DNA of 64,000 nucleotides, taken from Butyrivibrio sp. VCB2006. Its GTDB lineage: Bacteria > Bacillota > Clostridia > Lachnospirales > Lachnospiraceae. Position numbers and translations under genes: made by a program. The notes under the pieces were generated by a model. That model was not told the DNA's origin, did no database searches, and saw nothing but the letters and a program-made list of their open reading frames with translations. Below are positions 1,456 through 59,383 of the stretch, one piece after another (the stretch's first letter is position 1; each line of letters starts with the position of its first letter). The DNA is taken from positions 1 to 64,000 of the forward strand of contig NZ_ATVX01000004.1 in NCBI RefSeq assembly GCF_000420945.1, in the 5' to 3' direction.

Positions 1456-4400
1456 TTACTTTGTTGATTCTGAATTCTCAGCCTTAATGTTCTTTCTTCT
1501 AAGGTACTCTTCTGTTGATACACCTGCGATTGCTGCAAGGATTACGATTATCCACCATGGGAAGGACTTCTGTGTCTCATCCACCGGCATTGCTGCCTTT
1601 GCTGTATCTTCGTCTTCGATGGTTGCAACTGACTTCTTAGTGTTGTCCTTATTCTCCGGAGTCTTATCCTTGGTTGAAGCTACCTTGATATCATCTTCTG
1701 TTTCGTTTGTTTCTTCTACCTGTCTGCCTGCGCCATTTCCTGTGCGTATTCTCTGCTCTCCGAGAACTGCTCCGCCCTGGTTTGCATCTGCTACTTCATT
1801 TGCTATTGCATTAGATGCTACCTGTACAGGTGCTGTGATATCATATGTTCCGGCTGATGCTACTTCTTCAATTACTACGTAGCCTTCATCCTGTCCACCT
1901 TCAGAAGCTTCATCATTCTGATTCTCATTCTCCTGATCGATGCGGTCCTGTTTCTCATCAAGGATTTCTTTTGCATCTACAAGTTCTTCTGTTGCTTCGT
2001 CAAGGTCTTTCTGTGCCTGTTCGATTTCTTCCTTAGCTTCCTTGATCTTAGCTGCAAGTTCTTCTATTTTAGCTGCAAATTCAGCTTTATCAATGATGTT
2101 ATTTGCTACAAGAGTCTTAAGAGCTGATTCAAGAGCTGCCAGCTTCTTCTGAGCTGCTATAACAGCTTCTGCTGCCTTTCCTGCCTTTTCACTAAGCTCA
2201 TCGTATGCCTTGCGAGCTTCCTTGAAAGCTTCCTTAGCCTTAGATTCTGCATTAGCAAGATCTTTTTCTGCCTCAAGTTTCTTAGCTTTTGCCTTCTTGA
2301 TATCTTCAGCTGCTTTATTTGCCTTCTTCTCAGCTGCTATCTTGTCCTTTTCTGCCTTCTTGCCCTTTTCTTGTGCTGCCTTAGCTTCTGCCTTTGCAAT
2401 ATTTGCTTTAACTTCTGCTGCTATCTTATCTTCTCTTGCCTTCTTTGCCTTAGCTATTGCTGCTGCTTCAGCTGCCTTTGCCTCTCTTTCAGCCTTTTCT
2501 GCTGCTTTCTTTTCTGCATCTGCCTCTTTTGCCTTTGCTTCAGCTGCCTTCTTAGCTTCTTCTGCTTCTTTTGCTGCCTTCTGAGCTGCTAGCTTTTCTG
2601 CCTGGCCATCCTGTCCCTTCTTCTCAGCTGCCTTCTTATCATCTTCTGCCTTCTGAGCCTTTTTCTGCGCATTCTTCAGATCTTCTGCTGCTTTCTTTGC
2701 CTTAGCTTCAGCTGCCTTCTTATCTTTTTCTGCTTTTTCTATCTTCTTCTGAGCAGCTACAAGATCCTTGTCAGCCTTATTAGCGTCAGCTTCTGCCTTC
2801 TTCATATCTTTTTCAGCCTGCTCTGCCTTCTGACCTGCTGCCTTAAGTTCTTCAGCTGCCTCATTAGCTTTGCTTTCAGCTGCTTTCTTGTCTTCTTCTG
2901 CCTGATTTGCCTTAGCCTCTGCTGCTGCTAAATCTCCCTCAGCCTCTTTTGCCTTTGCTTCTGCTGCCTGCTTTTCTTCCTCAGCCTGACTTGCCTTGGT
3001 CTGGGCTGCTGCTAAATCTTCTTCAGCCTCTTTTGCCTTTGCTTCTGCTGCTGCCTTCTCATTTGCTCCAGCCTGTCCCTTTGCTTCTGCTGCTGCCTTT
3101 TCTCCCTCAGCCTCTCTTGCCTTAGCCTGTGCTGCTGCCTTCTCTGCTTCAGCTTCCTGTGCCTTTGTATTTGCTGCTAAAAGAGCTGCCTCTGCTTCCT
3201 GAGCTTTCTTGTTAGCTGCTGCAAGTTCTGCTGCTGCTTCGTTTGCCTTAGCTACTGCATCTTCATAAGCCTTCTTGGCTGCTGCTGCATCTGCTACTGC
3301 CTGAGAGTTAGCTGCCTGCCATTCTTCAAGAGCCTTCTGAGCATTAGCTGCTGCCTGATCTGCTGCTATCTTGGCTGCATCTGCATCTGCCTTAGCCTGT
3401 GCTGCTGCTTCAGCTGCTTCACGAGCCTGTGCTGTATCTGCTGTGTACTGGTCATGCTCAGCATCGTTGTACCAGTTCTGGTAGAATACTACCTTGCTAA
3501 GATTTGTGCTAGTTGCGGATCCCTTTTCAACAATACCCAAATCATATGTATTTTTGTACTGGCTGGAACTTGTTATATAGTTGCCCTTAGAATCCAGTGT
3601 AGTAAAGTTATAGTAAGTGGTCTTTCCGGTCTTTTTGTTATAGACCTGAATATAATTCTTCTTCCAATTTAAGTGTGTTACCAGATCGCTAATCACAAGA
3701 TCTTTTTCAGGATCTATAGACTTATCCTGTGAGTATACATAATATCTGATAAGGTTCTGTGCAATTTCTGTATTGATAGAAAGAGTACGATTCTTATGAA
3801 GATCTTCTTCAATATTCTCTCTAAGATCTTCGATCTGCTGATATCCTGCGTACTGTTTCTGTGCTTCTTCAAGAGCTTTATTTGCTTCTGTAACTGCACT
3901 TGCTGCATCTATAGCTGCCTGATCCGCAAGTCCCTTAGCTTCGTTTGCTTCATTTATCTTGCCTGCCAGCTCATTAAGAGTAGCATTTGCGTTATCACTT
4001 GCTTGCTTAAGAGCTTCGAGGTCACCAACTTCTCCAGCCTTCTTTTCTGCTGCTTCCTTCTCTGCTGTTGCTTCATCTATCAACTGATTAGCTGCTGAAA
4101 TCTCTGCTGCTGCCTGATCAGCCTTCTCCTGTGCTGCTGCTATTTCTGAATTTGCCTGACCTTCCTTGGAAATAGCATTTGCAAGCTCTGTAGCTGCTTC
4201 TTTTTCTTTCTTATCTGCATTTTCATATTCAGTCTTAGCATCTGCTGCCTTCTGCTCTGCATTTGCCTTATCTGTAACTGCCTCACCAGCCTTTGTCACA
4301 GCGTTGGCAAGCTCTGTAGCTGCATCGCCAGCCTTCTGATTAGCTGCTGTTATATCTGCCTGAGCCTGTTTTGCATTATTCTCAGCAGTGGTCTTGTCTG

Positions 4401-5901
4401 CAGTTGCTTCTTTAGCCTTCTTTTCTGCATTTTCTTTATCTGTAGCTGCTTCTTTAGCCTTCTTCTCTGCTGCTTCTTTTGCTGCTGCAGCCTCTGCTAC
4501 CTTCTTTTCTGCCTCTGCCTTATCCTTGAGTCCTGCTGATCCTCTGGATATCGCATCCTGTAATTCTCTCTCTGCATCAGCTGCCATCTTGTTGGCTGCT
4601 GCTATTTCTCTTTTGGCTTCTTCTGCCTTCTTATTTGCATCTTTTAATTCTTTGTCTGCATCTTTAATCTTATTCTCTGCTGCCTTCTTATCTTCCTCAG
4701 CCTTTCTAGCCTTAGCTTCTGCTGCCTTCTTTTCTGCTGCCGCCTCGTCAGCCTTCTTCTCTGCTGCCTTCTTGTCTTCTTTTGCCTTGTTTTCTTTTGC
4801 TACAGCTGCCTTATACTCTGCATCAGCTTCCTGTTCTCTCTGCTCTGCTGCTGCCTTAGCTGCTGCTGCCTCGCCTGCCTTCTTCTCTGCTGTTGCCTTT
4901 TCTGTTACTGCTTCATTAGCTCTTCTCTCTGCATCTTTCTTATCACGTTCTGCATCTCTGGCATCCTTTTCTGCATTCTTCTTATCCTGCTCTGCTGCAG
5001 CTGCCTTTGCATTTGCAAGGCCTTCGAGAACCTTCTGGTATCCGGCTTCCTGCATTTCAAGATTCTTTGCTGCATCATTTGTAAGATGAGAAAGATCTTC
5101 TGCTGCCATCTTGGCCTTTTCAAGATTCTTTCTTGCTGCTTCTATATCAGCACCTGTCTCTTTAAGTGCTTTTTCATAAGCTGCCTGTGCATCTGCCTCT
5201 GCCTTAACAGCTTCGTTATATTCTTTTTCTTTTTCTTCGTAGTCAAGTTTAGCCTGTTCAACAGCTGCCTTAGCTGTTTCTACGTTGGCTTCAGCTGTCT
5301 TAACAAGAGCGTTAGCTGCATCTATGTCTGCCTGTGTGTTAGCATTTACAGCTGCTGCCTTAGCTGCTGATACTTCGTTGTTAACTGCAGAAACTTCATT
5401 GTTTACGTTTTCTGCGATACTCTGGATCTCGGCTGCCTTGTTCTCTACGTTTTCCTTTGCAGTTTCTACTGTTTCCTGTGTAGTTGTAATATTCGCAACG
5501 TCTTCCTTTATTTCAGGAGCGTTCTTCTGATCAACCTTATCAACGTTCTTGTCAACGCCTGCTACAGCTGCACCGATAATAGTATTACCGATATTGCTTA
5601 TTGGTTGTACTTCAACTTCTACGTGTCCGGCTTCTATTGTTACGCTGTCATTTTCTTTTGCATCTTTAAAAGCCTCTACTACTTCATCAGCTGCCTGCGC
5701 TGCAGTATCAACTGCGTTATCAAATTCAACCTGAGCTGCTTCCTGATCTACTGAATTATCTTCCTTTGTTTCCTTAATTGGTTCAGGTGTAAGCTCTTCG
5801 CCTTCTGTTGCCAGAACTGTCATAGGCTGAAGTGCCATGCTTGCACTGATGCCTATTGCGATTGCCTTTACTAAATTCTTGTTAAATAAATTCTTTCTCA
5901 T
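1456..5901 (-). CDS. Large exported coiled-coil surface protein, 1481 aa
   Basis: A Sec signal peptide (residues 1 to about 32, cut after VLA) is followed by very long Ala/Lys/Glu/Asp coiled coil in two blocks, roughly residues 130-695 and 820-1350. Much of it has a 14-residue period (two heptads) of the type AEEDKKAAEAKAKE. A non-coiled insert rich in Tyr, Thr and Asn lies between the blocks at about residues 697-820. A low-complexity acidic segment and a C-terminal membrane span (WWIIVILAAIAGV) with a basic tail end the protein; no LPxTG motif is seen, so it is probably a membrane-anchored fibre that crosses the wall. Base composition is biased by GCT and AAG codons. The promoter was not identified. 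Function unknown; structural or adhesin-like roles are inference. Confidence 0.85.
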   Translation of the reverse strand: MRKNLFNKNLVKAIAIGISASMALQPMTVLATEGEELTPEPIKETKEDNSVDQEAAQVEFDNAVDTAAQAADEVVEAFKDAKENDSVTIEAGHVEVEVQPISNIGNTIIGAAVAGVDKNVDKVDQKNAPEIKEDVANITTTQETVETAKENVENKAAEIQSIAENVNNEVSAVNNEVSAAKAAAVNANTQADIDAANALVKTAEANVETAKAAVEQAKLDYEEKEKEYNEAVKAEADAQAAYEKALKETGADIEAARKNLEKAKMAAEDLSHLTNDAAKNLEMQEAGYQKVLEGLANAKAAAAEQDKKNAEKDARDAERDKKDAERRANEAVTEKATAEKKAGEAAAAKAAAEQREQEADAEYKAAVAKENKAKEDKKAAEKKADEAAAEKKAAEAKARKAEEDKKAAENKIKDADKELKDANKKAEEAKREIAAANKMAADAERELQDAISRGSAGLKDKAEAEKKVAEAAAAKEAAEKKAKEAATDKENAEKKAKEATADKTTAENNAKQAQADITAANQKAGDAATELANAVTKAGEAVTDKANAEQKAADAKTEYENADKKEKEAATELANAISKEGQANSEIAAAQEKADQAAAEISAANQLIDEATAEKEAAEKKAGEVGDLEALKQASDNANATLNELAGKINEANEAKGLADQAAIDAASAVTEANKALEEAQKQYAGYQQIEDLRENIEEDLHKNRTLSINTEIAQNLIRYYVYSQDKSIDPEKDLVISDLVTHLNWKKNYIQVYNKKTGKTTYYNFTTLDSKGNYITSSSQYKNTYDLGIVEKGSATSTNLSKVVFYQNWYNDAEHDQYTADTAQAREAAEAAAQAKADADAAKIAADQAAANAQKALEEWQAANSQAVADAAAAKKAYEDAVAKANEAAAELAAANKKAQEAEAALLAANTKAQEAEAEKAAAQAKAREAEGEKAAAEAKGQAGANEKAAAEAKAKEAEEDLAAAQTKASQAEEEKQAAEAKAKEAEGDLAAAEAKANQAEEDKKAAESKANEAAEELKAAGQKAEQAEKDMKKAEADANKADKDLVAAQKKIEKAEKDKKAAEAKAKKAAEDLKNAQKKAQKAEDDKKAAEKKGQDGQAEKLAAQKAAKEAEEAKKAAEAKAKEADAEKKAAEKAEREAKAAEAAAIAKAKKAREDKIAAEVKANIAKAEAKAAQEKGKKAEKDKIAAEKKANKAAEDIKKAKAKKLEAEKDLANAESKAKEAFKEARKAYDELSEKAGKAAEAVIAAQKKLAALESALKTLVANNIIDKAEFAAKIEELAAKIKEAKEEIEQAQKDLDEATEELVDAKEILDEKQDRIDQENENQNDEASEGGQDEGYVVIEEVASAGTYDITAPVQVASNAIANEVADANQGGAVLGEQRIRTGNGAGRQVEETNETEDDIKVASTKDKTPENKDNTKKSVATIEDEDTAKAAMPVDETQKSFPWWIIVILAAIAGVSTEEYLRRKNIKAENSESTK

Positions 5902-9041: not shown

Positions 9042-9467
9042 TTATTCTTCATCCTCTGATTCCTCATCGAAATCAGTTTCTTCTATTTCTTCGCCGCGAG
9101 CAACTCTAGCCGCATTGTCTTTAGCTGCAACTTCATCAATCTTCTTGGACATATTGATGGCGTACTCAATTGAATCATCCATGATAAATCTGATCTCAGG
9201 AGTGTATCTCATATTGAGCTCTTTGGCCAAAGTACTGCGAACATAACCTGCTGCGCTCTTAAGACCCTCAGCAGTTCTTGCTCTGTCCTCGTCGTCACCC
9301 ATTACAGTTACCCAGACTTTACATGTCTTAAGGTCCGGAGCAACCTCAACGTCCATAACAGAAGTCATGGGGCTGATTCTGGGATCTTTGCTGTAACGGA
9401 GAGCTTCTGAAATAACCTTCATAACCTCGCCGTTGATTCTTTTATTCTTATTGCTATTCTTTCTCAT
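9042..9467 (-). CDS. rbfA: Ribosome-binding factor A
   Basis: 141 residues. The N-terminal region RINGEVMKVISEALRYSKDPRI and the later VEVAPDLKTCKVWVTV are typical of RbfA, a small KH-like protein that helps 30S maturation. The C-terminus carries an acidic tail. Its GGAGG ribosome-binding site (9475-9479) directly abuts the end of a structured intergenic repeat that fills the space after infB, so translation of rbfA may be influenced by folding of that element. Confidence 0.95.
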   Translation of the reverse strand: MRKNSNKNKRINGEVMKVISEALRYSKDPRISPMTSVMDVEVAPDLKTCKVWVTVMGDDEDRARTAEGLKSAAGYVRSTLAKELNMRYTPEIRFIMDDSIEYAINMSKKIDEVAAKDNAARVARGEEIEETDFDEESEDEE

Positions 9468-9479
9468 TTTTTTACCTCC

Positions 9480-9649
9480 GTGATATACGGATTGCTCCGT
9501 ACTATGTACTCTCGCAATCCTACATACATTCGAAACTCGATATGTTCATTTCATTCACATATCTTTATTTCTCATGTATGTTCGGTCCTCAAGGTTACAC
9601 TCATACGTCTGCAAGCAGCCATAAGTGTAACTTTTCGTCCCTATATCAC
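9480..9649 (-). repeat. Family I structured intergenic element, copy 1 (infB/rbfA gap)
   Basis: The element fills the whole gap between the infB stop and the rbfA ribosome-binding site. Inverted ends GTGATATA/TATATCAC (9480-9487 with 9642-9649) enclose stem GGATTGC/GCAATCC (9489-9495, 9514-9520), stem ACATACAT/ATGTATGT (9522-9529, 9574-9581) and a locus-specific hairpin (9594-9601 with 9624-9631). The same layout recurs at 23749, 56224 and 58355. The infB TGA stop directly touches the element end. An RNA-level role is inferred. Confidence 0.85.
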
Positions 9650-12586
9650 TCACTGTCTAGGTACTTCTACCATCTCGTATGCTTCTACGTAGTCGCCTTC
9701 ATGGATTGAATCGAAACCGTCAAATACAAGACCGCACTCGAAGCCTTCCTTAACTTCCTTGACGTCATCCTTGAATCTCTTAAGGGATGCAAGATCACCT
9801 TCGAAGATCTGCTCGCCCTCTCTCTGGATACGAACCTTGCACTCTTTCTTGATGACACCATCCTTAACGAATGCACCGGCAATGTTACCAACCTTGGAAG
9901 CCTTGAAGATCTGACGAACTTCTGCATGTCCGGTAACTCTTTCCTCATAAATAGGAGCAAGCATACCCTTCATAGCATATTCGATTTCCTCGATAGCCTG
10001 GTAGATAACCTTGTAAAGCTTGATTTCTACGCCTTCGTGCTCAGCCATGCTCTTAGCTGTTGCATCAGGACGAACATCAAATCCGATGATGATAGCGTTA
10101 GATGCTGCAGCAAGTGTTACGTCAGACTCGTTGATTGCACCAACACCACCATGGATAACCTTAACAACAACTTCGTCGTTAGAAAGCTTAAGAAGTGACT
10201 GCTTAAGAGCCTCTACGCTACCCTGAACGTCAGCCTTGATGATGATATCAAGTTCCTGAAGTCTACCTTCCTCAATCTTGGAGTAAAGATCATCAAGTGA
10301 CATCTTAGCCTTAGTCTCTTCGATAAGATCCTTCTTGTGCTGCTGAAGGTATGTATTAGCATACTGCTTAGCAAGCTTATCAGTAGGATGTGCAAGGAAT
10401 ACTTCACCTGCGTTAGGTACATCTGAAAGACCAAGGATCTCAACAGGCTGTGAAGGACGAGCTTCTTTAAGCTTGTTGCCCTTATCATCAACCATGGCTC
10501 TAACCTTACCTGAGCTTGCTCCAGCTGAAATGAAGTCTCCAACATGAAGTGTACCCTTCTGAACAAGTACGTTTGCTACAGGACCACGGCCCTTATCAAG
10601 CCTTGCCTCAAGTACAAGTCCTCTTGCCTCTCTGTCTGGGTTAGCCTTGAGCTCAAGGATATCTGCTGTAAGGATGATAGTCTCAAGGAGGTCCTCAATA
10701 CCTTCACCTGACTTAGCTGATACAGGAACGAACTCAGTTGTTCCGCCCCAATCTGTAGAGATAAGACCATACTCGGTCATTTCCTGCTTAACTCTGTCTA
10801 TATTAGCGTTTGGCTTATCAATCTTGTTAACAGCTACGATGATTTCTACCTCAGCTGCCTTAGCATGGTTGATAGCTTCTACTGTCTGAGGCATTACACC
10901 GTCATCAGCAGCAACTACAAGTACTGCGATATCTGTTGAATTAGCACCACGCATACGCATTGCTGTGAATGCTTCGTGACCAGGTGTATCAAGGAATGTA
11001 ATCTTCTGATCATTTACAGATACTGTGTAAGCACCGATTCTCTGTGTGATACCGCCTGCCTCTCTGTCTGTAACAGATGTCTTACGTATAGCATCAAGAA
11101 GTGATGTTTTACCATGGTCAACGTGACCCATTACGCAGACAACAGGAGGTCTCTTCTTGAGAGTCTCAGGTGCGTCTTCTTCTTCCTTAAGAAGTTCTTC
11201 GATAACATCAACCGGAACTTCTTTTTCGCAAAGGATTTCGTATTCCATTGCGATATTCTCAGCTTCCTCATATGTAAGCTCTGTGTTAACTGTAGAAATC
11301 TGTCCGGCCATGAAGAGCTTCTTGATGATAACTGAAGGCTGCATTCTCATCTTCTCAGCAAGTTCCTTGATAGAAACCTTCTCTGGGATTGTGATAACCT
11401 TGATCTGCTCTTCAGGTTCCTCAACCTTCTTAACCTCAGGCTTGATGAATCTGCCAACTCTCTTACTTCTTGGCATCATCTCTTCCTGCTCGTAAGCAAG
11501 ATCCTTCTTGTTTCTCTTATCCTTCTCCTGACCCATACGACGTCTTTCTTCGTCTCTGTGTCCTGCACCCTCTTTTACAGGTGCCTCGAAGGCTGCAGCG
11601 CCTCTGTCATTTCTATCACCGCGCTTACCATCAAACTTACCGCCGAACTTGTCGTTCTTGCCAGCGAACTTGCCCTGACCGCCTGCAGCCTGATTGAAGC
11701 CGCCCCTGTTGTCACGGTTAAAGCCGCCCTGGTTATTATCTCTTCTGAAGCCGCCCTGGCCACCATTTCTGTTCTGGCCGTTCTGGTTTCTGTCTCCGTT
11801 TCTGTTGAATCCGGAGTTGCGATCGTTTCTATCGTTACGATCATTTCTATCGTTTCTGTCATTTCTGAATGACTGATTATCTCTGTTTCTGTTCTCAACA
11901 GGAGCACTTACTACAGGTGCCTGTTCCTGAACAGGAGCCTGAACCTTCTCCTGAACCGGTGCCTTAGGCTGTTCCTGTACAGGTGCTTGAACAGGAGCTT
12001 CCTTCTTGGGAGCCGGAGCAGGTGTCTTCTTGAGAGGAGAACTATAGCTATCAAGCTGTGAAGGTGCTGTCAAAGGCTTGATAGGATGATATACATTCTG
12101 TGACTGCGCGAACTGCTTGCGCTGAGGCTGGTTGTTACCGCCTCTGTTATTGTCACGGCGCTGATTACCGCCGTTTCCGTTATTATTCTGGTTGTTAAAG
12201 CCGCCCATCTTGGAGTTACCGGCATTAGTAACCATGATAATCTTCTTCTTTTTCTTGGGAGCTTCACCGGCTGGCTTGTCTGAAACTGCCGGCTTCTCTG
12301 CAGGCTTTTCTACTGCCTTCTCAGCTGGCTCTGCTGCCTTAACAGGCTCTTTTGCAGGCTCTTTTGCAGGCTTTTCTTCAGCCTTCTCTGCTGCCTTTTT
12401 AGGCTTTTCTTCCTTTGCTGCAGATTTAGCACCGCCAAAATGCTTACGAGCTACATCTGCATCTGTTTCTTCTATAGAACTGTTCGAACGCTTCGCCTCA
12501 ATGCCATTTTCCTGCAAAAAGCTTATAAGCTCTTTTCCTTCGCATCCAAGCTCAAATGCAAGATCGGATATTTTTATTTTTGCCAT
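9650..12586 (-). CDS. infB: Translation initiation factor IF-2
   Basis: 978 residues. The N-terminus has an IF2_N helix ([21 protein letters not shown]) and then a long low-complexity Lys/Ala/Glu and Asn/Arg/Gly/Gln linker. A second IF2_N region is near residue 400, and the GTPase domain has G1 GHVDHGKT (about residue 488), G3 DTPGHEA and G4 NKID. Beta-barrel and C-terminal fMet-tRNA binding domains follow. It delivers initiator tRNA to the 30S subunit. Its ATG overlaps the ylxQ stop codon by one base, so translation is probably coupled. The stop codon touches the family I repeat. The linker contains a run of Arg-Asn-Asp triplets encoded by a short-period DNA repeat at 11819-11872. Confidence 0.97.
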
Positions 12587-15077: not shown

Positions 15078-15490
15078 CTGTAATACCAGAATTGATTTTG
15101 ACTCACTCTTGTTATTGCAGAATTCTTTTTCTGTAATACTATGACTGGCGTTAAATCTGTCCTTGGTATTACAGAATTTGTTTACTGTAATACCATTATT
15201 GATTTGCAACTTGTTTTGTTATTACTGAATTCTTTTTTGGTAATACTATATTAAATTTTCAACTTATCTTGTTATTACCAGATTCTTTTTGGGTAATACC
15301 ATGATTTTCCTAAACCTTTCTTTAGTATTACAGGATTATTTTTCTGTAATAACAATGAACTTTGCAAATTTTCTTTGGTATTACATGAAATATTATTGAT
15401 AATATCAAGCCGCTTTCAAAATCAAATTTGGTATACACTCCTCTGCAATATGTAATACCATCTCACTCCACGTTCACAACATGGTATTAA
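15078..15490. repeat. Family III palindrome array, array 1 (about 8 units, 53-nt period)
   Basis: Units of form GTAATACCA, about 20 nt of unique sequence, then TGGTATTAC recur eight times, separated by AT-rich linkers of about 10 nt. Seen the other way, 33-34 nt imperfect palindromes (starting at 15109, 15163, 15216, 15269, 15322, 15375 and 15428) are separated by spacers of 19-21 nt. This fills most of the 14996-15537 gap. No cas genes are nearby, and the palindromes are too degenerate for a CRISPR. Function unknown. Confidence 0.85.
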
Positions 15491-22648: not shown

Positions 22649-23704
22649 TCACTTCCAATTGTCCAGTTCTGCTTTCAGCGCACCTAAAAGCTCGCTCTCA
22701 GGCATTTTCCTGACAATCTCACCCTTCTTGATAAGAAGACCTTCGCCATCGCCCCCTGCGATTCCTATATCTGCTTCCTTGGCTTCACCTGGGCCATTTA
22801 CTGCACAGCCCATAACTGCAACCTTAATATCAAGAGGATACTTCTGAACCATGGTCTCAACCTGGTTAGCAAGGCCGATAAGATCAATCTTGGTTCTGCC
22901 ACAGGTAGGACAGGAAACAACTTCTATTCCGCCCTTTCTAAGCTCCAGGGTTCTCAAGATAAACTTAGCGGTCTTGATCTCTTCTACAGGATCTCCTGAA
23001 AGAGATACTCTGATAGTGTCACCGATTCCCTGGCTTAGAATAATTCCAAGTCCAACAGATGACTTGATATTTCCGCCATAAAGTGTTCCTGCCTCAGTAA
23101 TTCCTACATGAAGAGGATACTGGCACTTCTTGGCAAGAAGCTCATGGGCCCTAGCGCAGAGCATAACATTTGAAGACTTGATGCTGACAACCATGTTGTC
23201 GTACCCAAGATCCTCAATAATACCAATCTTATCAAGAGCGCTCTCTACAAGGCCCTCTGCAGTTACTCCGCCGTACTTTTCAACAAGGTCTTTTTCCAAA
23301 GAACCGCTGTTAACGCCAACTCTGATAGGGATATTCCTCTCCTTGGCACAGGATACAACAGCTGCAATTCTGTCCTTGGCTCCGATGTTTCCGGGATTAA
23401 TTCTGATCTTGTCAGCGCCATTTTCCATAGCAGCAATAGCCATCTTATAGTCAAAATGAATATCAGCTACAAGTGGAATACTGATCTGTTTCTTAATCTC
23501 TTTTACCGCCTTGGCAGCTTCCTCAGTAGGAACTGTACATCTGATGATCTCGCAGCCTGCTTCCTCGAGCCTGTGGATCTGCTCTACAGTTGCCTTAACG
23601 TCCTCAGTCCTTGTGTTAGTCATGGACTGGATGAGGATTGGATTACCACCACCAATGACTCTGTCACCTATATGAATAACCTTTGTATTATCTCTGTATG
23701 CCAT
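22649..23704 (-). CDS. ispG: 4-hydroxy-3-methylbut-2-enyl diphosphate synthase
   Basis: 351 residues from the ATG at 23702-23704, with GGAGG six bases upstream; a TTG four codons earlier overlaps that site and is rejected. The N-terminal TIM barrel has IGGGNPILIQSMTNT. The [4Fe-4S] cysteines are in SCPTCGRT and MGCAVNGPGEA near the C-terminus. It makes HMBPP from MEcPP in the MEP isoprenoid pathway, and sits with dxr in the same gene group. Confidence 0.96.
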   Translation of the reverse strand: MAYRDNTKVIHIGDRVIGGGNPILIQSMTNTRTEDVKATVEQIHRLEEAGCEIIRCTVPTEEAAKAVKEIKKQISIPLVADIHFDYKMAIAAMENGADKIRINPGNIGAKDRIAAVVSCAKERNIPIRVGVNSGSLEKDLVEKYGGVTAEGLVESALDKIGIIEDLGYDNMVVSIKSSNVMLCARAHELLAKKCQYPLHVGITEAGTLYGGNIKSSVGLGIILSQGIGDTIRVSLSGDPVEEIKTAKFILRTLELRKGGIEVVSCPTCGRTKIDLIGLANQVETMVQKYPLDIKVAVMGCAVNGPGEAKEADIGIAGGDGEGLLIKKGEIVRKMPESELLGALKAELDNWK

Positions 23705-23748
23705 AATTGCCTCCAAAAATATCTCTCATATTACTTATCACTACAGTT

Positions 23749-23922
23749 ACAAGGTAGTTACGGATTGTTCCACTTCGTTCTCACAATCCTAGAAATAATT
23801 CGAAAATCGATCCGCTCATTCTTCGCGTATCTTTTTTTCTCATTATTTCCTATCTATCAAATGTCATATCGATATTGCATGTAAACATGCATATCGTATG
23901 CCACTTGATAGAACTACCTTGT
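23749..23922 (-). repeat. Family I structured intergenic element, copy 2 (rseP/ispG gap)
   Basis: Perfect 11-bp ends ACAAGGTAGTT/AACTACCTTGT (23749-23759 with 23912-23922) enclose the family core. Compensating changes relative to the other copies are seen in stem 2 (GGATTGT/ACAATCC) and stem 3 (AAATAAT/ATTATTT). A long locus-specific hairpin spans 23854-23911 with stem end CTATCAA/TTGATAG. The right end contains the rseP stop codon TAG (23914-23916) and two preceding codons. Confidence 0.85.
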
Positions 23923-24966
23923 GAATTTCGTAATGTCGTTAAACAGCACAAATACCATTAGTCCCAGAAGTGCCACCATTCCGATCATGTGCACAAATCC
24001 CTCTTTTTCCGGAGGAACAGGTTTACCGAATATAACTTCAATGAACTGGAACACAAGTCTGCCGCCGTCAAGAGCCGGAATCGGTAAAAGATTCATAACT
24101 CCCAGGTTAACCGACAAAAGAACTGTCAGAGACAGCATAGTCAGCACCACAGCAGAAACTCCGTAAGGCTTAACCTCTTCATAGGTATCGTCCACCATCT
24201 TGACCATGCCCACAGGACCAGAAACATCGTCCTTGGACAGACGTCCTTTGAACAAAAGCGCAAGGCTTCTATAAGTTGCCTTGAAATAGTATCTAACCTC
24301 ATACCAGGCATACTTAAGAGCCGCAGGGCCTCTTACTTCGCCATACTCTCCAAGGTAAATGCCCATGTAGTATCTGCCTGCTTCTTCGCTGTACTTGGGC
24401 TGAAGAGTTGTTGTGTATCTCTGACCGTCTCTCTCATACACAATCTCCATAGGACTTCCCTCTGCAAACTGCGAAATAAGAGTAACTTCTCCGGCCATGT
24501 ACACTTTCTCGCCGTCAACACTGATAAACTTATCCCCAACCTGCATGCCGGCCTCTACAGCTGCTGAATCCTCAGTCATGTTGCTGATAACAGGAAAATC
24601 CCAGGTTGAAAAGCTTACCAGAATAACAGCCAGAATATAAGCAATAATAAAGTTAGCAAATGGTCCCGCAAAAAGAGTTGCTATTCTGCGCCAAACAGGA
24701 GCATTCAAAAACGAACGCTCATCGTAGTTTCCCTTCTCCTCTGCAATAGGATCCATGCCGTCAAATACGCAGGCACCGCCGATTGGAAGAAGCTTAATGC
24801 TATAGAGGGTCTCGCCCTTCTGCTTTTTCCAGATTGTTGGGCCCATTCCGATAAAGAACTCGTTAACTCTGATGCCTCCGGACTTAGCCACAATGAAATG
24901 GCCGAACTCATGGGAGGCTACCAGAACTCCGAATATTATAAAGAATATAAGTATGCTTACTATCAT
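23914..24966 (-). CDS. rseP: RIP metalloprotease RseP/RasP (site-2 protease)
   Basis: 350 residues with four membrane segments. The zinc-binding HEFGH is near residue 19 in the first span, and NLLPIPALDGGR in the third carries the third ligand. A PDZ domain lies between about 120 and 200 (AAVEAGMQVGDKFISVDGE). It cleaves membrane anti-sigma factors and signal-peptide remnants inside the membrane. It lies 44 nt after dxr. Its last codons and stop form one strand of the terminal stem of family I copy 2. Confidence 0.95.
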   Translation of the reverse strand: MIVSILIFFIIFGVLVASHEFGHFIVAKSGGIRVNEFFIGMGPTIWKKQKGETLYSIKLLPIGGACVFDGMDPIAEEKGNYDERSFLNAPVWRRIATLFAGPFANFIIAYILAVILVSFSTWDFPVISNMTEDSAAVEAGMQVGDKFISVDGEKVYMAGEVTLISQFAEGSPMEIVYERDGQRYTTTLQPKYSEEAGRYYMGIYLGEYGEVRGPAALKYAWYEVRYYFKATYRSLALLFKGRLSKDDVSGPVGMVKMVDDTYEEVKPYGVSAVVLTMLSLTVLLSVNLGVMNLLPIPALDGGRLVFQFIEVIFGKPVPPEKEGFVHMIGMVALLGLMVFVLFNDITKFTR

Positions 24967-42791: not shown

Positions 42792-42974
42792 ATGAAAACT
42801 TGGAACACACCAGTTATCGAAGAGCTTGAGATCAACCAGACAGCAGGCGGCGGCCCAAAGAGCAATAATTTCGACAACATTTACCTTACAGATGAGCAGT
42901 TAGACGCTCTTAGAAAGCTTGGTTTTGACGTTACCGGCGATTGGGCTGGTTTCGCTAAAGTAAGCGGTAAATAA
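42792..42974 (+). CDS. RiPP precursor-like peptide 1, 60 aa
   Basis: The start is the ATG at 42792, with GGAGG nine bases upstream; it begins MKTWNTPVIEEL. This leader style (aromatic, then x-P-V-x-E-E-L, then N-Q-T-A) matches lasso peptide leaders recognised by RRE domains, where Thr sits two residues before the core. After QTA comes GGGP, then Asp ten residues into a putative core starting at the first Gly. The remaining 30 residues (DEQLDALRKLGFDV... ending KVSGK) are conserved with the second copy. It converges on a lasso-cyclase-like gene. Core boundaries and product class are not proven. Confidence 0.75.
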   Translation: MKTWNTPVIEELEINQTAGGGPKSNNFDNIYLTDEQLDALRKLGFDVTGDWAGFAKVSGK

Positions 42975-42987
42975 TCACAAGATCAGA

Positions 42988-43151: not shown

Positions 43152-43334
43152 ATGAAGACTTGGAACAGACCTGTTCTCGAAGAGCTTGCTCTTAACCAGA
43201 CAGCAGGCGGCGGCCCTAGAAGCCAGAAAATGGATCATGTGTATCTTTCAGAAGAGGAAATCGAATTTCTCAGAAAACATGGTCACGATGTATCCGGTGA
43301 TTGGACCGGATTCCAGAAAGTAAGTGGTCAGTAA
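43152..43334 (+). CDS. RiPP precursor-like peptide 2, 60 aa
   Basis: Same length and layout as the first peptide: MKTWNRPVLEELALNQTAGGGP, then a divergent stretch, then HDVSGDWTGFQKVSGQ. Invariant between the two are MKTWN-PV-EEL, NQTAGGGP, the Asp at core position 10, LRK-G, DV-GDW-GF-KVSG. AGGAGG lies upstream of the ATG. The strong conservation of the C-terminal part is unusual for lasso cores and is discussed under findings. It ends 37 nt from the convergent cyclase-like gene. Confidence 0.75.
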   Translation: MKTWNRPVLEELALNQTAGGGPRSQKMDHVYLSEEEIEFLRKHGHDVSGDWTGFQKVSGQ

Positions 43335-43340
43335 TTCCAG

Positions 43341-55159: not shown

Positions 55160-56185
55160 TTATCTCTGGATACGTCCTGATCCGTCACCGCCAGCGAGCT
55201 TGTTAACTTCGTCAACAGTAACAAGGTTGAAGTCTCCCTCGATAGAGTGCTTAAGTGCTGATGCAGCTACAGCAAACTCGATTGTTGCCTGAGGATCGAA
55301 GCCATTTACGCAGCTGTAGATAAGTCCGCCGCCGAATGAATCTCCGCCACCAACACGGTCAACAATGTGAAGAGCATACTTCTTGGAGAAGTAAGCCTGT
55401 CCGTCTGTGTAAAGCATTGCGCTCCAGTTGTTGTCGTTAGCTGAAAGTGACTCACGAAGTGTGATAGCAACCTTCTTGAAGCCAAATCTCTCTGTAAGCT
55501 TCTGAGCAACCTCGATGTAGCCCTCTCTGTTAAGCTTACCTGTTGTAACGTCTGTAGAAGAAGCAGCGATACCGAATACATCGTTAGCATCCTCTTCGTT
55601 AGCGATACATACATCAACATACTGGCAAAGCTCAGCCATTACCTTGCCTGCCTTCTCCTTGCTCCAGAGCTTCCCTCTGTAGTTAAGGTCGCAAGATACT
55701 GTAAGGCCGTGCTCTTTAGCCTTCTTACAAGCCTCAAGTGTGATCTCAGCAAGAGAATCGCTTACAGCTGGAGTGATACCTGTGAAATGGAACCACTCTG
55801 CGCCCTCGAAAATCTCATCCCAGTTAAAGTCAGCTGGAACTGCCTCAGCGATAGCTGAATGTGCTCTATCATAGATGCACTTAGAGCCTCTCTGTGAAGC
55901 ACCCTTCTCGTTGTAGTAGATACCTACACGATCGCCACCTCTTGTGATCTTGGATGTATCAACGCCGTACTTTCTAAGAGAGTTAACAGCTGCCTGACCA
56001 ATCTCGTGCTTAGGAAGCTTTGTAACATATACAGAATCAAGGCCATAGTTAGCAAGAGAAACTGATACGTTAGCCTCTCCACCACCGAATGTAGCCTCAA
56101 GATGATCAACCTGAACAAATCTAAGGTAGTTGTCTGGCTGAAGACGAAGCATGATCTCACCAAATGTAACGACTTTCTTTGACAT
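55160..56185 (-). CDS. kdgK: 2-keto-3-deoxygluconate kinase (PfkB family)
   Basis: 341 residues. FGEIMLRLQPDNY at the N-terminus, substrate-binding FGGGEANVSVSLANYG, and the C-terminal anion hole with catalytic Asp in DRVGGGDSFGGG near residue 275 identify a PfkB sugar kinase of the KDG kinase type. It phosphorylates KDG to KDPG, which the adjacent aldolase cleaves to pyruvate and glyceraldehyde 3-phosphate. Last gene of kduI-kduD-eda-kdgK; a family I element fills the gap to eda. Confidence 0.92.
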   Translation of the reverse strand: MSKKVVTFGEIMLRLQPDNYLRFVQVDHLEATFGGGEANVSVSLANYGLDSVYVTKLPKHEIGQAAVNSLRKYGVDTSKITRGGDRVGIYYNEKGASQRGSKCIYDRAHSAIAEAVPADFNWDEIFEGAEWFHFTGITPAVSDSLAEITLEACKKAKEHGLTVSCDLNYRGKLWSKEKAGKVMAELCQYVDVCIANEEDANDVFGIAASSTDVTTGKLNREGYIEVAQKLTERFGFKKVAITLRESLSANDNNWSAMLYTDGQAYFSKKYALHIVDRVGGGDSFGGGLIYSCVNGFDPQATIEFAVAASALKHSIEGDFNLVTVDEVNKLAGGDGSGRIQR

Positions 56186-56223: not shown

Positions 56224-56395
56224 TGAGTGATATACGGATTGCTCCGTTTCACTCTCGCAATCCTACATACATTCGGAAATCGATATATTTATTTCATTCA
56301 CATATCTTTTTTCCTCATGTATGTTCGCATCCCGAGGTCATACAGACATTTGTGTAAACACATGTCTGTATGACTTCTGTCTGCTATATCACTCA
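56224..56395 (-). repeat. Family I structured intergenic element, copy 3 (eda/kdgK gap)
   Basis: Perfect 11-bp ends TGAGTGATATA/TATATCACTCA (56224-56234 with 56385-56395) include the eda stop codon (56393-56395). Stem 2 GGATTGC/GCAATCC is at 56236-56242 and 56257-56263. The locus-specific hairpin 56337-56374 has a 13-bp arm based on GTCATACAGACAT. The core is nearly identical to copies 1 and 4. Confidence 0.87.
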
Positions 56396-57352
56396 ATTTT
56401 TAACAAGATGAACTGCGAAACCGCCGAACTCATCAGCAAGGTAAGCAACCTTAAGATGATTATCTGCATCATAGCTAAATGAAGACTCATCAAACTTAAC
56501 GCCCTGCTTGCCAAGGTGATATACTGCTCTGTCAACGTTGTTAGTTCCGATAGCGATGTGTCCGTGTGTTCCACGTCCCTGAGACTTCATAACTTCTACA
56601 ACAGATCCGGCAAATACAGAAGAATTGCCAACCTTCTTGCCAAAGCCGAAGAGCTCAAACATCTCAGCTGTCTTCTCAGCAGCTGCTGCATCTGTCTCGT
56701 TGATTCCAACGTGCTTCATTGTGAAGCCAAGCATTGCATTAACTGCGTCTCTTGTCATAGCTTCGATCTCATCGAACTTACCTGCAGAAATGAGGTCCTT
56801 CTTAACCATCCAGCTACCGCCGCAGCAGAATACCTTGTTGAAGCTGAGGTAATCATTGAGGTTGTTCTTGTTAACACCACCTGTAGGCATGAAGTGCATC
56901 TTTGTATAAGGAGCTGCCATAGCCTTGATCTTGGCAATACCACCGTTCTGCTCTGCTGGGAAGAACTTAACGCAGTCAAGACCAAGCTCGATAGCCTGCT
57001 CAACTTCGCCTGGTGTTGCTGTACCAGGTACTACAGGTACTCCGATTGACTGAATGTACTCAACATTTGATCTGTTGAATCCAGGGCTAACAATGAACTT
57101 AGCGCCTGCTGCCTTAGCACGGTCAGCCTGCTCAGCATTGAGAACTGTACCAGCACCAACGATCATCTCTGGGAACTTCTCAGAAATAAGTCTGATTGCT
57201 TCCTCAGCAGCTGCTGTACGGAATGTAACCTCTGCAGCTGGAAGGCCGCCCTTTATAAGTGCCTCAGCAAGTGGCACTGCATCCTTAGCATCGTCAATAG
57301 CGATTACAGGAACGATACCAATTTTGTATAACTCTTCGCAAATCTTATCCAT
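56393..57352 (-). CDS. eda: KDPG aldolase fused to a VOC-superfamily domain
   Basis: 319 residues from the ATG at 57350-57352. Residues 1 to about 205 are a complete KDPG/KHG aldolase: GIVPVIAIDD, EVTFRTAAAEEAI, FIVSPGFNRSNVEYI, and CVKFFPAEQNGG with the Schiff-base Lys. Residues about 212-319 form a vicinal-oxygen-chelate/glyoxalase-like domain (MKHVGINETDAAAAE... GHIAIGTNNVDRAVYHLGKQGVKF). The aldolase makes pyruvate and glyceraldehyde 3-phosphate from KDPG. The role of the VOC part is unknown; regulation or epimerase-like activity is possible. No frame break is seen between the domains, so the fusion is genuine. Confidence 0.92.
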   Translation of the reverse strand: MDKICEELYKIGIVPVIAIDDAKDAVPLAEALIKGGLPAAEVTFRTAAAEEAIRLISEKFPEMIVGAGTVLNAEQADRAKAAGAKFIVSPGFNRSNVEYIQSIGVPVVPGTATPGEVEQAIELGLDCVKFFPAEQNGGIAKIKAMAAPYTKMHFMPTGGVNKNNLNDYLSFNKVFCCGGSWMVKKDLISAGKFDEIEAMTRDAVNAMLGFTMKHVGINETDAAAAEKTAEMFELFGFGKKVGNSSVFAGSVVEVMKSQGRGTHGHIAIGTNNVDRAVYHLGKQGVKFDESSFSYDADNHLKVAYLADEFGGFAVHLVKN

Positions 57353-57442
57353 TTTAATTGCCTTTCTTTCCTTATAACTTATAAATGGTGCAATCATGCG
57401 CAAGCACGATTGCACATTGAATTTAATCTATTACCAGTTGGC

Positions 57443-58297
57443 TCACTGTGCCTGGCTCTCGTCGATATCCTGGAACTTAGAAGGATCAAGGTTGTTAGGA
57501 TCCTGTCCGATGTAAGCAGAAATACCACCATCGATATAAACTACCTGTCCGTTGATGAAGTCAGAAGCTGGAGATGCAAGGAATACTGCAAGTCCCATAA
57601 GGTCCTCTGTCTTGCCCCATCTCTGAGCTGGTGTCTTAGAACGGATGAATCTGTCAAATGGGTTCATTGATCCATCAGCCTGCTTCTCACGAAGAGGTGC
57701 TGTCTGAGGTGTTGCAATGTAACCAGGTCCAATAGCGTTGCACTGGATGTTGTACTGACCATACTCAGAGCAGATGTTTCTTGTAAGCATCTTAAGTCCG
57801 CCCTTAGCTGCTGCATAAGCAGATACAGTCTCACGACCGAACTCTGACATCATTGAGCAAGCGTTGATGATCTTACCTGATCCCTTCTTCATCATTGCAG
57901 GAAGAACTGCCTTAGAGCAGATGAATGGACCTGTAAGGTCTACATCGATAACCTGCTGCCACTGATCAACTGACATCTCGTGCATAGGAATTCTCTTGAT
58001 GATACCTGCGTTGTTAACGAGGATGTCGATTGTACCAACTTCTTTCTCAACTGCAGCTACAAATTCCTGTACCTGATCTTCCTTAGTAACGTCGCAAACC
58101 TTACCGAAGGCCTTGATGCCGTGCTTCTCGTACTCAGCAAGTCCCTTGTCTACGAGTTCCTGGTTGATATCGTTAAATACAACCTTAGCTCCGCTCTCTG
58201 CGAATGCTACTGCATAAGCAAGTCCAAGTCCATAAGAAGCGCCAGTAACCCAAGCTACCTTGCCTTCAAGTGAAAAGTTCTTTAAAAAATCTCCCAT
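57443..58297 (-). CDS. kduD: 2-deoxy-D-gluconate 3-dehydrogenase / KduD-type SDR
   Basis: 284 residues of the short-chain dehydrogenase fold: VTGASYGLGLAYA nucleotide motif near residue 18, NNAGI, and the catalytic Tyr/Lys in SAYAAAKGG. The neighbourhood with kduI, eda and kdgK assigns it to reduction of 3-deoxy-D-glycero-2,5-hexodiulosonate to KDG (KduD). Gluconate 5-dehydrogenase is the sequence-level alternative. The extended C-terminus (YIGQDPNNLDPSKFQDID) is a little longer than usual. Confidence 0.9.
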   Translation of the reverse strand: MGDFLKNFSLEGKVAWVTGASYGLGLAYAVAFAESGAKVVFNDINQELVDKGLAEYEKHGIKAFGKVCDVTKEDQVQEFVAAVEKEVGTIDILVNNAGIIKRIPMHEMSVDQWQQVIDVDLTGPFICSKAVLPAMMKKGSGKIINACSMMSEFGRETVSAYAAAKGGLKMLTRNICSEYGQYNIQCNAIGPGYIATPQTAPLREKQADGSMNPFDRFIRSKTPAQRWGKTEDLMGLAVFLASPASDFINGQVVYIDGGISAYIGQDPNNLDPSKFQDIDESQAQ

Positions 58298-58354: not shown

Positions 58355-58528
58355 TTGATGTACGGATTGCTTCACTTACGTTCTCGCAATCCTACAACCA
58401 TTCGGAAATCGATATACTCATTTCATTCGCATATCTTTTTTCCTCATGTCTGTTCGGTCTTCAAGGTCAAGCATATTATCATGCAAGCATGAAATATGCT
58501 TGACTTTGAATCCCTTGTATCACATCAA
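58355..58528 (-). repeat. Family I structured intergenic element, copy 4 (kduI/kduD gap)
   Basis: The terminal stem pairs TTGATG (58355-58360) with CATCAA in the last kduI codons (58523-58528) and TAC with GTA, leaving a 3-nt bulge. The kduI stop TGA (58520-58522) lies in this end. Stem 2 GGATTGC/GCAATCC is at 58364-58370 and 58386-58392. The locus-specific hairpin spans 58466-58504 with arm GTCAAGCATAT. Downstream flank shares GTAGTGATAAG with copy 2. Confidence 0.85.
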
Positions 58529-59383
58529 GTCCTGCATAGCGCAGTCATCCATATCATCGAAATCCTGGTTTTCTCCAACCATTCCCCAGATGAATGTGTA
58601 AGCCTGTGTGCCGCATCCTGAGTGGATTGACCAGCTAGGGCTGATAACAGCCTGCTCATTTCTCATGATGATGTGGCGTGTCTCCTGAGGCTCGCCCATG
58701 AAGTGCATAACGAATGCATCCTCAGGAATATCGAAGTAAAGATAAACTTCCATTCTGCGGTCATGTGTGTGGCATGGCATTGTGTTCCATACGCTACCAG
58801 GCTTAAGCTCTGTCATACCCATCTCAAGCTGGCAGGTCTCAACCTGACCGGGAAGAATGTACTTGTTGATAACTCTGTGGTTAGCACCCTCAAGGCTTCC
58901 AAGCTCCTTCTTGTTCTCATCCTTGATGATAACAACGCCTTCCTCAGGTGTTCCTTCTCTTTTGATAAGAACTGTTGGATATGTCTTGTGAGCAGGTGCA
59001 CTGTTGATGTAGAACTTAGCAGGCTTTGATGCATCTACGCTGGCAAAAGAAATATCTTTTGCTCCCATTCCGATGTACATTCCCTGCTTGTACTCTACAG
59101 TGTACTTCTTGCCATCAATAGTGATGACTCCGGCACCGCCGATGTTGATTACTCCCATCTCTCTTCTCTGAAGGAAGTACTCAGCTCTAAGCTCATCTCC
59201 GGCTGTAAGAACCAGCTCCTTATTTACAGGTACTGCAGATCCTGTGATGATTCTGTCAATATGGCTGTAAACAAGCTTGATGTCGTCCGGCTGGAACAGA
59301 TCATCAATCAGAAACTCTTCTCTAAGTCTCTTGGTGTCATAGTATTTCTCGTCTCTTGGTGAACATGCAGTTCTAAGTTCCAT
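58520..59383 (-). CDS. kduI: 5-dehydro-4-deoxy-D-glucuronate isomerase
   Basis: 287 residues. LVLTAGDELRAEYFLQRREMGVINIGG and the cupin metal site in TMPCHTHDRRMEVYLYFDI with the later SPSWSIHSG are the KduI signature. It isomerises DKI (5-keto-4-deoxyuronate) released from unsaturated galacturonides. First gene of the operon kduI-kduD-eda-kdgK, with a good promoter upstream. The stop codon lies inside the end of family I copy 4. Confidence 0.95.
   Translation of the reverse strand: MELRTACSPRDEKYYDTKRLREEFLIDDLFQPDDIKLVYSHIDRIITGSAVPVNKELVLTAGDELRAEYFLQRREMGVINIGGAGVITIDGKKYTVEYKQGMYIGMGAKDISFASVDASKPAKFYINSAPAHKTYPTVLIKREGTPEEGVVIIKDENKKELGSLEGANHRVINKYILPGQVETCQLEMGMTELKPGSVWNTMPCHTHDRRMEVYLYFDIPEDAFVMHFMGEPQETRHIIMRNEQAVISPSWSIHSGCGTQAYTFIWGMVGENQDFDDMDDCAMQDLM

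Follow-up and report, generated by a model that had tools for sequence, protein, structure and literature searches.

The element found in four intergenic copies in the window, by which we mean the whole 64,000-nt stretch of Butyrivibrio sp. VCB2006 DNA analysed here, is the Clostridiales-1 RNA (Rfam RF01699), and it is an insertion that comes and goes. It sits in sense at the stop codon of an upstream gene, is present at some orthologous sites and absent from others, has been copied recently to unrelated places, and closes on a foot helix that follows the end of its host gene. All four copies were matched over their full length by the covariance model of the family, with scores of 94.5-115.4 bits (E-values from 1.5e-25 to 6e-20) against a curated gathering score of 48 bits, and the claim of a preliminary description that the element belongs to no named RNA family therefore fails. 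The same description had placed the four copies correctly to within a few bases; they lie on the minus strand, in the direction of transcription of the flanking genes, which share that strand at all four copies (Table 1). The fixed length of about 170-175 nt that it gave is borne out by the window copies (167-170 nt by the Rfam model) but not elsewhere, as full matches in other genomes range from about 150 to 220 nt. The name rseP for the M50 peptidase gene is our assumption, and the dehydrogenase gene is presumably KduD, from its gene context.

Table 1. Clostridiales-1 copies in the window, their foot helices and the genes on either side.
Feature	Position	Strand	Basis
infB, upstream host of copy 1	9650-12586	minus	Pfam IF-2, GTP_EFTU, IF2_N
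infB stop codon TGA, directly abutting copy 1	9650-9652	minus	ORF 9650-12586, IF-2 domains
Clostridiales-1 copy 1, infB/rbfA gap	9480-9649	minus	Rfam 115.4 bits, model 1-166
Copy 1 P1 arms	9642-9649 (5' in RNA), 9480-9487 (3')	minus	sequence
rbfA, downstream of copy 1	9042-9467	minus	Pfam RBFA
rseP-like M50 peptidase, upstream host of copy 2	23914-24966	minus	Pfam Peptidase_M50
Stop codon of copy 2 upstream host gene	23914-23916	minus	ORF
Clostridiales-1 copy 2, rseP/ispG gap	23749-23922	minus	Rfam 94.5 bits at 23752-23919
Copy 2 P1 arms	23912-23922 (5'), 23749-23759 (3')	minus	sequence
ispG/gcpE, downstream of copy 2	22649-23716	minus	Pfam GcpE
KHG/KDPG aldolase, upstream host of copy 3	56393-57415	minus	Pfam Aldolase
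Clostridiales-1 copy 3, KHG/KDPG aldolase/PfkB kinase gap	56224-56395	minus	Rfam 103.8 bits at 56226-56393
Copy 3 P1 arms	56385-56395 (5', including stop TGA 56393-56395), 56224-56234 (3')	minus	sequence
PfkB-family sugar kinase, downstream of copy 3	55160-56185	minus	Pfam PfkB
KduI-family gene, upstream host of copy 4	58520-59383	minus	Pfam KduI
Clostridiales-1 copy 4, KduI/short-chain dehydrogenase gap	58355-58528	minus	Rfam 99 bits at 58356-58522
Copy 4 P1 arms	58517-58528 (5', TTGATG-[TGA]-TAC), 58355-58363 (3')	minus	sequence
Short-chain dehydrogenase, KduD-like, downstream of copy 4	57443-58297	minus	Pfam adh_short_C2

The predicted fold consists of a foot helix P1, a long hairpin P2 (usually with a CUUG loop), a hairpin P3 whose internal loop, UGAG/CGAA, is conserved, and a hairpin P4 on the 3' side. 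The terminal stems of the first three window copies are GTGATATA/TATATCAC, ACAAGGTAGTT/AACTACCTTGT and TGAGTGATATA/TATATCACTCA; in the fourth the 5' arm is TTGATG-TAC, with the stop codon TGA (58520-58522) bulged out of it. At copy 2 this arm, ACA AGG TAG TT, is made of the last two sense codons of the host gene, its stop codon and two further nucleotides. Locus-specific pairing of the terminal stems could be read in the sequence at all four sites, and the changes in stems 2 and 3 and the variable long hairpin that had been reported were seen as stated.

Other repeats were noticed in the same window. Between 17463 and 17937, nine imperfect palindromes of about 53 nt (TGTAATAACAAAAG...TTTTGTTATTAC) lie head to tail at a spacing of 51-53 nt, with a single copy at 15174-15228. 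On the plus strand, two similar 184-nt stretches (42792-42975 and 43152-43335) each hold a small frame, read by eye, that starts with MKTWN, which ends before a terminator-like hairpin and which we presume to resemble a lasso-peptide (paeninodin-like) precursor. A frame of 1481 amino acids on the minus strand (1456-5901) is rich in low-complexity repeats, whose spacing is often a multiple of 42 nt.

Clostridiales-1 is a multi-copy element of Butyrivibrio and its relatives. The genome from which the window comes carries 23 full copies and one fragment. In a search of relatives, 39 of 61 genomes matched, 38 of these above the cut-off. Each of the 37 same-genus genomes, this one included, had between 1 and 32 matches; in other families of the order, 2 genomes out of 24 had any. 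Laxer filters applied to 12 of these genomes yielded up to 42 matches in one of them, several below the cut-off, and under stricter filters 4 of 398 genomes sampled across the phylum matched, all from the same family. Named records with one form of the element amounted to 59 stretches, from Butyrivibrio, other Lachnospiraceae and one organism labelled Clostridiales bacterium. Two sets of copies were used for the measurements below. Set 1 holds 172 copies, from 181 model matches minus 8 with lengths outside 140-225 nt and 1 duplicate, its regions being part of the listed places and all the chosen ones over the cut-off. Set 2, from a pattern scan of named records, holds 40 (69 matches minus 21 already in set 1, 6 for length and 2 duplicates), giving 212 kept copies together. 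The flanks were long enough to score placement in 168 of 172 and 33 of 40 copies, pairing beyond the model edge in 171 of 172 and inverted flanks in 209 of 212; stem classes were taken from 161 of 172. Orthologous copies make these counts non-independent; the 23 loci of the own genome are independent.

Relatives of the element were also sought outside chromosomes. Of three patterns run against viral contigs, two had no match and the third hit 28 stretches, none recognised by the model (best 18.9 bits, E 0.13); a blastn search of phages and plasmids with one copy found no relative. A phage, plasmid or viral origin was set aside on these results, which are a partial test, as the three patterns cover no more than 62, 3 and 43 copies out of 212 and set 2 had been chosen with the first.

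The position of the copies relative to genes is highly regular. In the own genome, a same-strand upstream frame of at least 58 codons stops within -5 to +16 nt of the 5' edge of the element in 23 of 23 copies. A stricter rule, which called for a frame open over at least 100 codons and a stop within -8 to +18 nt, was satisfied by 118 of 168 set 1 copies compared to 2.3% of random positions in the same loci, and in the named-record set by 23 of 33 copies compared to 2.7%, with an antisense stop at the 3' edge in 2 of 33. The stop of an antisense gene was found at the 3' edge in 13 of 168 copies, somewhat above the 3.1% at random positions. Stop offsets peak at 0, +1 and +4, and at +4 the element's own TGA can be the stop. 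Among the 117 copies called stop-adjacent by an ORF caller, 97 have a same-strand gene no more than 150 nt downstream (median start distance 34 nt), in another 7 such a gene lies at a greater distance, and in 13 the next gene is on the opposite strand. The caller left 55 of 172 copies as not stop-adjacent, 7 of which were found to be so on inspection, and the remainder are found behind intrinsic terminators, immediately behind a tRNA-Thr gene or elsewhere between genes. The conserved association with one type of downstream gene that characterizes a riboswitch or 5' leader regulator was not seen: the window copies precede unrelated genes, and most of the orthologous loci read are without the element. 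At some operon sites that hold Clostridiales-1 in other species, an intergenic repeat of another, unrelated kind (TAATCACTTRGCGAGG...GAGAGCAGAACTTC, with variants) was observed just after the stop (L147, L150, L153, L118, L121, L122, L109, L064, L071, L059); it had no Rfam match at the five loci scanned (L150, L147, L118, L109, L064).

P1 is tailored to the host gene because its 5' arm often enters host sequence (the stop and, in some copies, the final codons before it), with the complement in its 3' arm. In 68 of 209 copies the flanks outside the core are reverse-complementary for 3 nt or more, compared to 7.8 expected when flanks were swapped between copies. Such inverted flanks were found in 42 of 143 stop-adjacent copies (6.3 expected) and 23 of 63 others (3.0 expected), and in set 2 alone in 14 of 38 (1.96 expected); 71 of 171 set 1 copies had no pairing past the edge of the model. 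At the rseP-ispG site the 3' arm tracks the host end: the window genome has ACAAGGTAGTT at this end and a second genome (G009) has ACGAGGTAAT, and the 3' arms are AACTACCTTGT and ATTACCTCG, respectively. In element-free relatives (G004 and G032; loci L092 and L093), ACGAGGTAATT is followed directly by the ispG start, with no ATTACCTCG. Similarly, the foot of L015 (GCATGATA/TATCATGC) opens with the host GCA and stop, and an empty relative (L213) has GCATAA without the complement; at least two other empty relatives of this site end in different codons. Among the loci listed, the host arm thus occurs without its complement in element-free relatives at no fewer than two, and a pre-existing palindromic target was ruled out at both. 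The host part is likewise shared at a third site (L207), but with a relative too distant for a firm comparison. Finally, at a site with genes that we take to be pheS and pheT from their protein ends, genomes with the full element read TTT TAG and empty or deleted ones TTC TAA or TTC TGA, so copying in the reverse direction, or an earlier change in the host, may apply. The host tailoring of P1 is real, as the preliminary description had proposed for the terminal stem of a structured element on the transcribed strand.

To follow the element at orthologous sites, orthologues of the four downstream genes were fetched from 41 same-genus genomes, which gave 30 loci for each gene. The upstream partner adjoins the downstream gene in 30, 30, 28 and 27 of the 30 loci at the four sites, and the element is mostly absent. 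Read by eye, the infB-rbfA site holds a full element in 4 of 30 loci and a shrunken one with both P1 arms in 3, with none recognised in the rest; the rseP-ispG site holds a full element in two loci and a remnant in a third among 30; and the aldolase-kinase and KduI-dehydrogenase sites have full elements in three and four loci, respectively. In one of these last loci (L155) the full element has the stop codon on one side and a further, damaged copy on the other. At the pheS-pheT-like site, 8 loci read of 14 found comprised 4 full, 2 remnant and 2 empty, one of the remnants being in a locus with 98% flank identity to a full one; at another orthologous site 4 loci were read of 9 found. Moreover, one genome (G020) carries a pair of 170-nt copies that are 100% identical and sit at unrelated loci with no common flanking 12-mers, and another (G028) has three copies 98.8% identical to that pair. 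The flanks of these five diverge from the P1 ends outward, and three share a small downstream hairpin. The existence of filled, shrunken and empty sites, together with identical copies, therefore indicates that the element has been gained, lost and copied to new places, and this contradicts the earlier view that the pairing excludes an insertion. An empty site was also sought for the copy behind the tRNA-Thr gene, where the three clear orthologues (L175, L259, L279) were all filled and L280 lacked the tRNA. An extra hairpin (GGCCAGTAGCACTTGG...CCTAGTGCTACT) was observed in one of them (L259, genome G036), inside the conserved P3 region.

Direct repeats of 3 nt were found at the edges of 7 copies compared to 4.9 in shuffles, and of 2 nt in 54 compared to 20.2 (209 copies); 34 of these 54 are self-complementary (AT, TA, GC) and 17 are GA. 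A clear target duplication of the classical kind was not seen beyond 2 nt. YGATA occupies positions 2-6 in 151 of 212 copies, the outer bases vary with the host, and some feet match it over their whole length. PF01797 (Y1 transposase) is absent from 8 copy-carrying genomes of the same genus, including two that are 99-100% complete and carry 15 (G024) and 7 (G033) copies, and the Y1 transposase was rejected as an obligatory partner. On the 3' side, 15 of 171 copies (e.g. L009, L011, L016, L023, L034, L225, L243, L265) have AGTAG no more than 14 nt from the edge, too few for a constant 3' tail; it is possibly a tail or what is left of another element. Downstream of some AT-rich copies (L045, L049, L187, L208, L026, L263, L269) there is a small inverted hairpin in which about the first 17 bases of the element recur, as in GGTGTCAAAA-loop-TTTTGACACC-TACATCAT, and which looks like a shrunken reverse copy.

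The strong covariation claimed for the element was confirmed statistically. With 102 matches (99 distinct) in an alignment fitted to the structure model, which favours that structure, all 56 base pairs change on both sides, none of 500 shuffles reached the covariation score, and 89.8% of cells pair, compared to 68.2% in shuffles and 31-43% when partners were slid. This covariation is almost purely Watson-Crick. In all 212 folded copies G-U makes up 2.0% of pairs, and the same folding gave 10.5% for 14 tRNAs, 13.1% for 172 windows of coding sequence and 15.4% for shuffled sequences. The figures for P1 to P4 are 1.0, 2.9, 1.9 and 0.9% (161 of 172 copies), and at the first flank position G-U accounts for 1% compared to 11% in shuffles. 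Close orthologous pairs of copies were compared by sequence alignment and the predicted fold of one member, one locus yielding several pairs: the 19 pairs with at least 90% identity showed 27 changes from one Watson-Crick pair to another, 12 one-sided changes that still pair and 29 broken pairs, and the 40 pairs at 80-90% identity showed 223, 69 and 179. The 29 broken pairs beside 27 Watson-Crick replacements in the closest copies are no sign of perfect mending. Passage through a G-U intermediate was impossible for 14 of the 27 and 97 of the 223 replacements. Among instantaneous rRNA changes, 61.0% are reported in a section of Monttinen and Loytynoja (2022, PMC8794818) to be of the other, G-U-passable type, which leaves 39%, so the ratio found here is not decisive alone. 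The same source, in the portion concerned with hairpins, proposes template switching as an origin of perfect stems and gives an enrichment of CTTG loops in hairpins with compensatory changes (2.43% compared to 0.01%); in Clostridiales-1, CTTG occupies the P2 loop position in 176 of 212 copies. We read the pattern, from sequence comparison, as probable folded-RNA selection plus template switching, in some proportion. The selection on base pairing put forward earlier would thus be one of two readings, as the near absence of G-U pairs and the host arm without complement also fit DNA template switching. Strong covariation may accordingly record in part template switching in DNA and not RNA selection, with few G-U intermediates here.

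Both internal-loop sequences, ATGAG and CGAA, occur in 203 of 212 copies, and in 168 of 172 the better fold is that of the sense strand and not of the antisense strand. The kept loop, the sense fold and the strand bias argue for a role in RNA. A passage of PMC12306157 reports that REP hairpins no more than 15 nt from a stop codon lower translation, and in a clostridial operon intergenic stem-loops set cleavage and stability, according to the part of PMC10311766 that deals with it. By analogy, Clostridiales-1 may act on the mRNA at the stop codon.

Our best explanation, to which we would give about an even chance as a whole, is that of an RNA element that is mobile and co-transcribed, whose stems are lengthened and repaired in part through template switching in DNA, and which acts on the host mRNA. 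Clostridiales-1 would be a non-autonomous mobile repeat of Butyrivibrio and relatives, presumably moved by some enzyme and transcribed within the mRNA of the host operon, that inserts or survives in sense at a stop codon and less often after a terminator or tRNA. The complement in the 3' arm of P1 would be written by intrastrand template switching at the hairpin during DNA replication, and switching together with folded-RNA selection would keep the stems Watson-Crick while their sequence drifts. Folded at a stop codon, the RNA could form an end barrier on the mRNA or slow down ribosomes as they terminate. The specific step by which replication, after insertion at the stop codon, copies the end of the host gene reverse-complemented onto the far side of the element is a tentative proposal that we doubt more than we believe. 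If it were true, a textbook-grade covariation would have arisen largely by copying and less by slow compensatory mutation, and an RNA structure anchored at a stop codon would become fitted to each operon. The stop-codon position, the mobility and the host-tied foot make this a testable mRNA element instead of a loose sRNA gene, and species that differ at the same operon site provide a natural experiment for both the mRNA role and the covariation question.

Other explanations were weighed against the same data. An ordinary selected cis-acting RNA, with point mutation followed by selected compensation, an adaptive match to the host, a role in mRNA stability, processing or translation termination, and no template switching, would account for the covariation score that 0 of 500 shuffles reached, the change of 56 of 56 pairs on both sides, the kept UGAG/CGAA loop and sense fold, the excess of sense over antisense copies at stop codons, and the one-sided and broken changes in close pairs. 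The scarcity of G-U pairs (2.0% compared to 10.5, 13.1 and 15.4% in tRNAs, coding windows and shuffles, and 1% compared to 11% at the first flank position), the 14 of 27 and 97 of 223 replacements not passable by G-U and the frequent losses at orthologous sites speak against it, and we hold it to be rather unlikely. Such losses, with the remnants and identical copies and the 1-42 matches per genome (weak ones included), are what would be expected of a purely selfish DNA repeat of MITE or REP type, in which the hairpins serve transposition as single-stranded DNA, to which pure Watson-Crick pairing is well suited, and the stop codon is the site of least harm. Harm avoidance alone, however, would not predict the 118 sense compared to 13 antisense copies among 168 at stops or the tight clustering of offsets at 0, +1 and +4; moreover, no mover is known from a search that covered PF01797, and viral contigs, phages and plasmids held no relative with the patterns and the single query used. 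We consider this reading unlikely.

Insertion into a pre-existing palindrome or terminator hairpin, the tailored stem being the old target, would agree with the commonness of inverted flanks and with the copies behind terminators, but the empty relatives of the rseP-ispG and L015 sites carry the host arm without its complement, which makes this explanation very improbable. An independent small RNA gene, in turn, deserves hardly any credence. It would match the Rfam type of the family ('Gene; sRNA') and the table entry in Weinberg et al. (2010, PMC2864571), where it is marked as probably RNA and probably neither cis-regulatory nor riboswitch; yet the element sits on the stop codon of the upstream gene, is followed on the same strand by a gene within 150 nt in 97 of 117 cases (median 34 nt), and comes and goes at orthologous sites. 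In contrast to the Rfam type, the placement found here argues for mRNA.

The mobile, co-transcribed element that we favour shares traits with several known systems. RF01699 itself stems from Weinberg et al. (2010, PMC2864571), a source that, in the part on this family, locates it in Clostridiales and the human gut, and whose table row for it gives no function, stop placement, mobility or tailored stem. The family has thus been catalogued since 2010; searches of the literature by family name and accession returned no functional study of it, and no earlier description of its placement, mobility or host-built foot was found. REP elements are short single palindromes with an associated Y1/RAYT transposase in the genome, whereas Clostridiales-1 has a four-helix fold of about 150-220 nt, and its copies occur also in genomes without a Y1 (RAYT-type) transposase. 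It resembles them as a multi-copy extragenic element, REP hairpins lying in part within 15 nt of the upstream stop (PMC12306157, in the passage on their location). A hairpin near the stop is likewise found in the 118 of 168 Clostridiales-1 copies within -8 to +18 nt, but here with a larger multi-helix fold, in sense orientation and with a foot stem that can include the stop itself. MITEs, ERIC, BOX, RUP and Correia elements are short and non-autonomous, with inverted ends, variable copy number and remnants formed by internal deletion. Clostridiales-1 shows the same shortness, apparent lack of autonomy, inverted ends, variable copy number and remnants, as well as filled and empty orthologous sites and copies at unrelated ones; unlike them, it has no clear target duplication, its outer bases follow the host, and it combines strong covariation with a sense bias. 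The perfect stems, multi-base compensatory changes and CTTG loops are reminiscent of the hairpins ascribed to template switching in the rRNA and microRNA genes treated in a portion of PMC8794818, with the difference that here the template would be the end of a host gene beside a mobile element.
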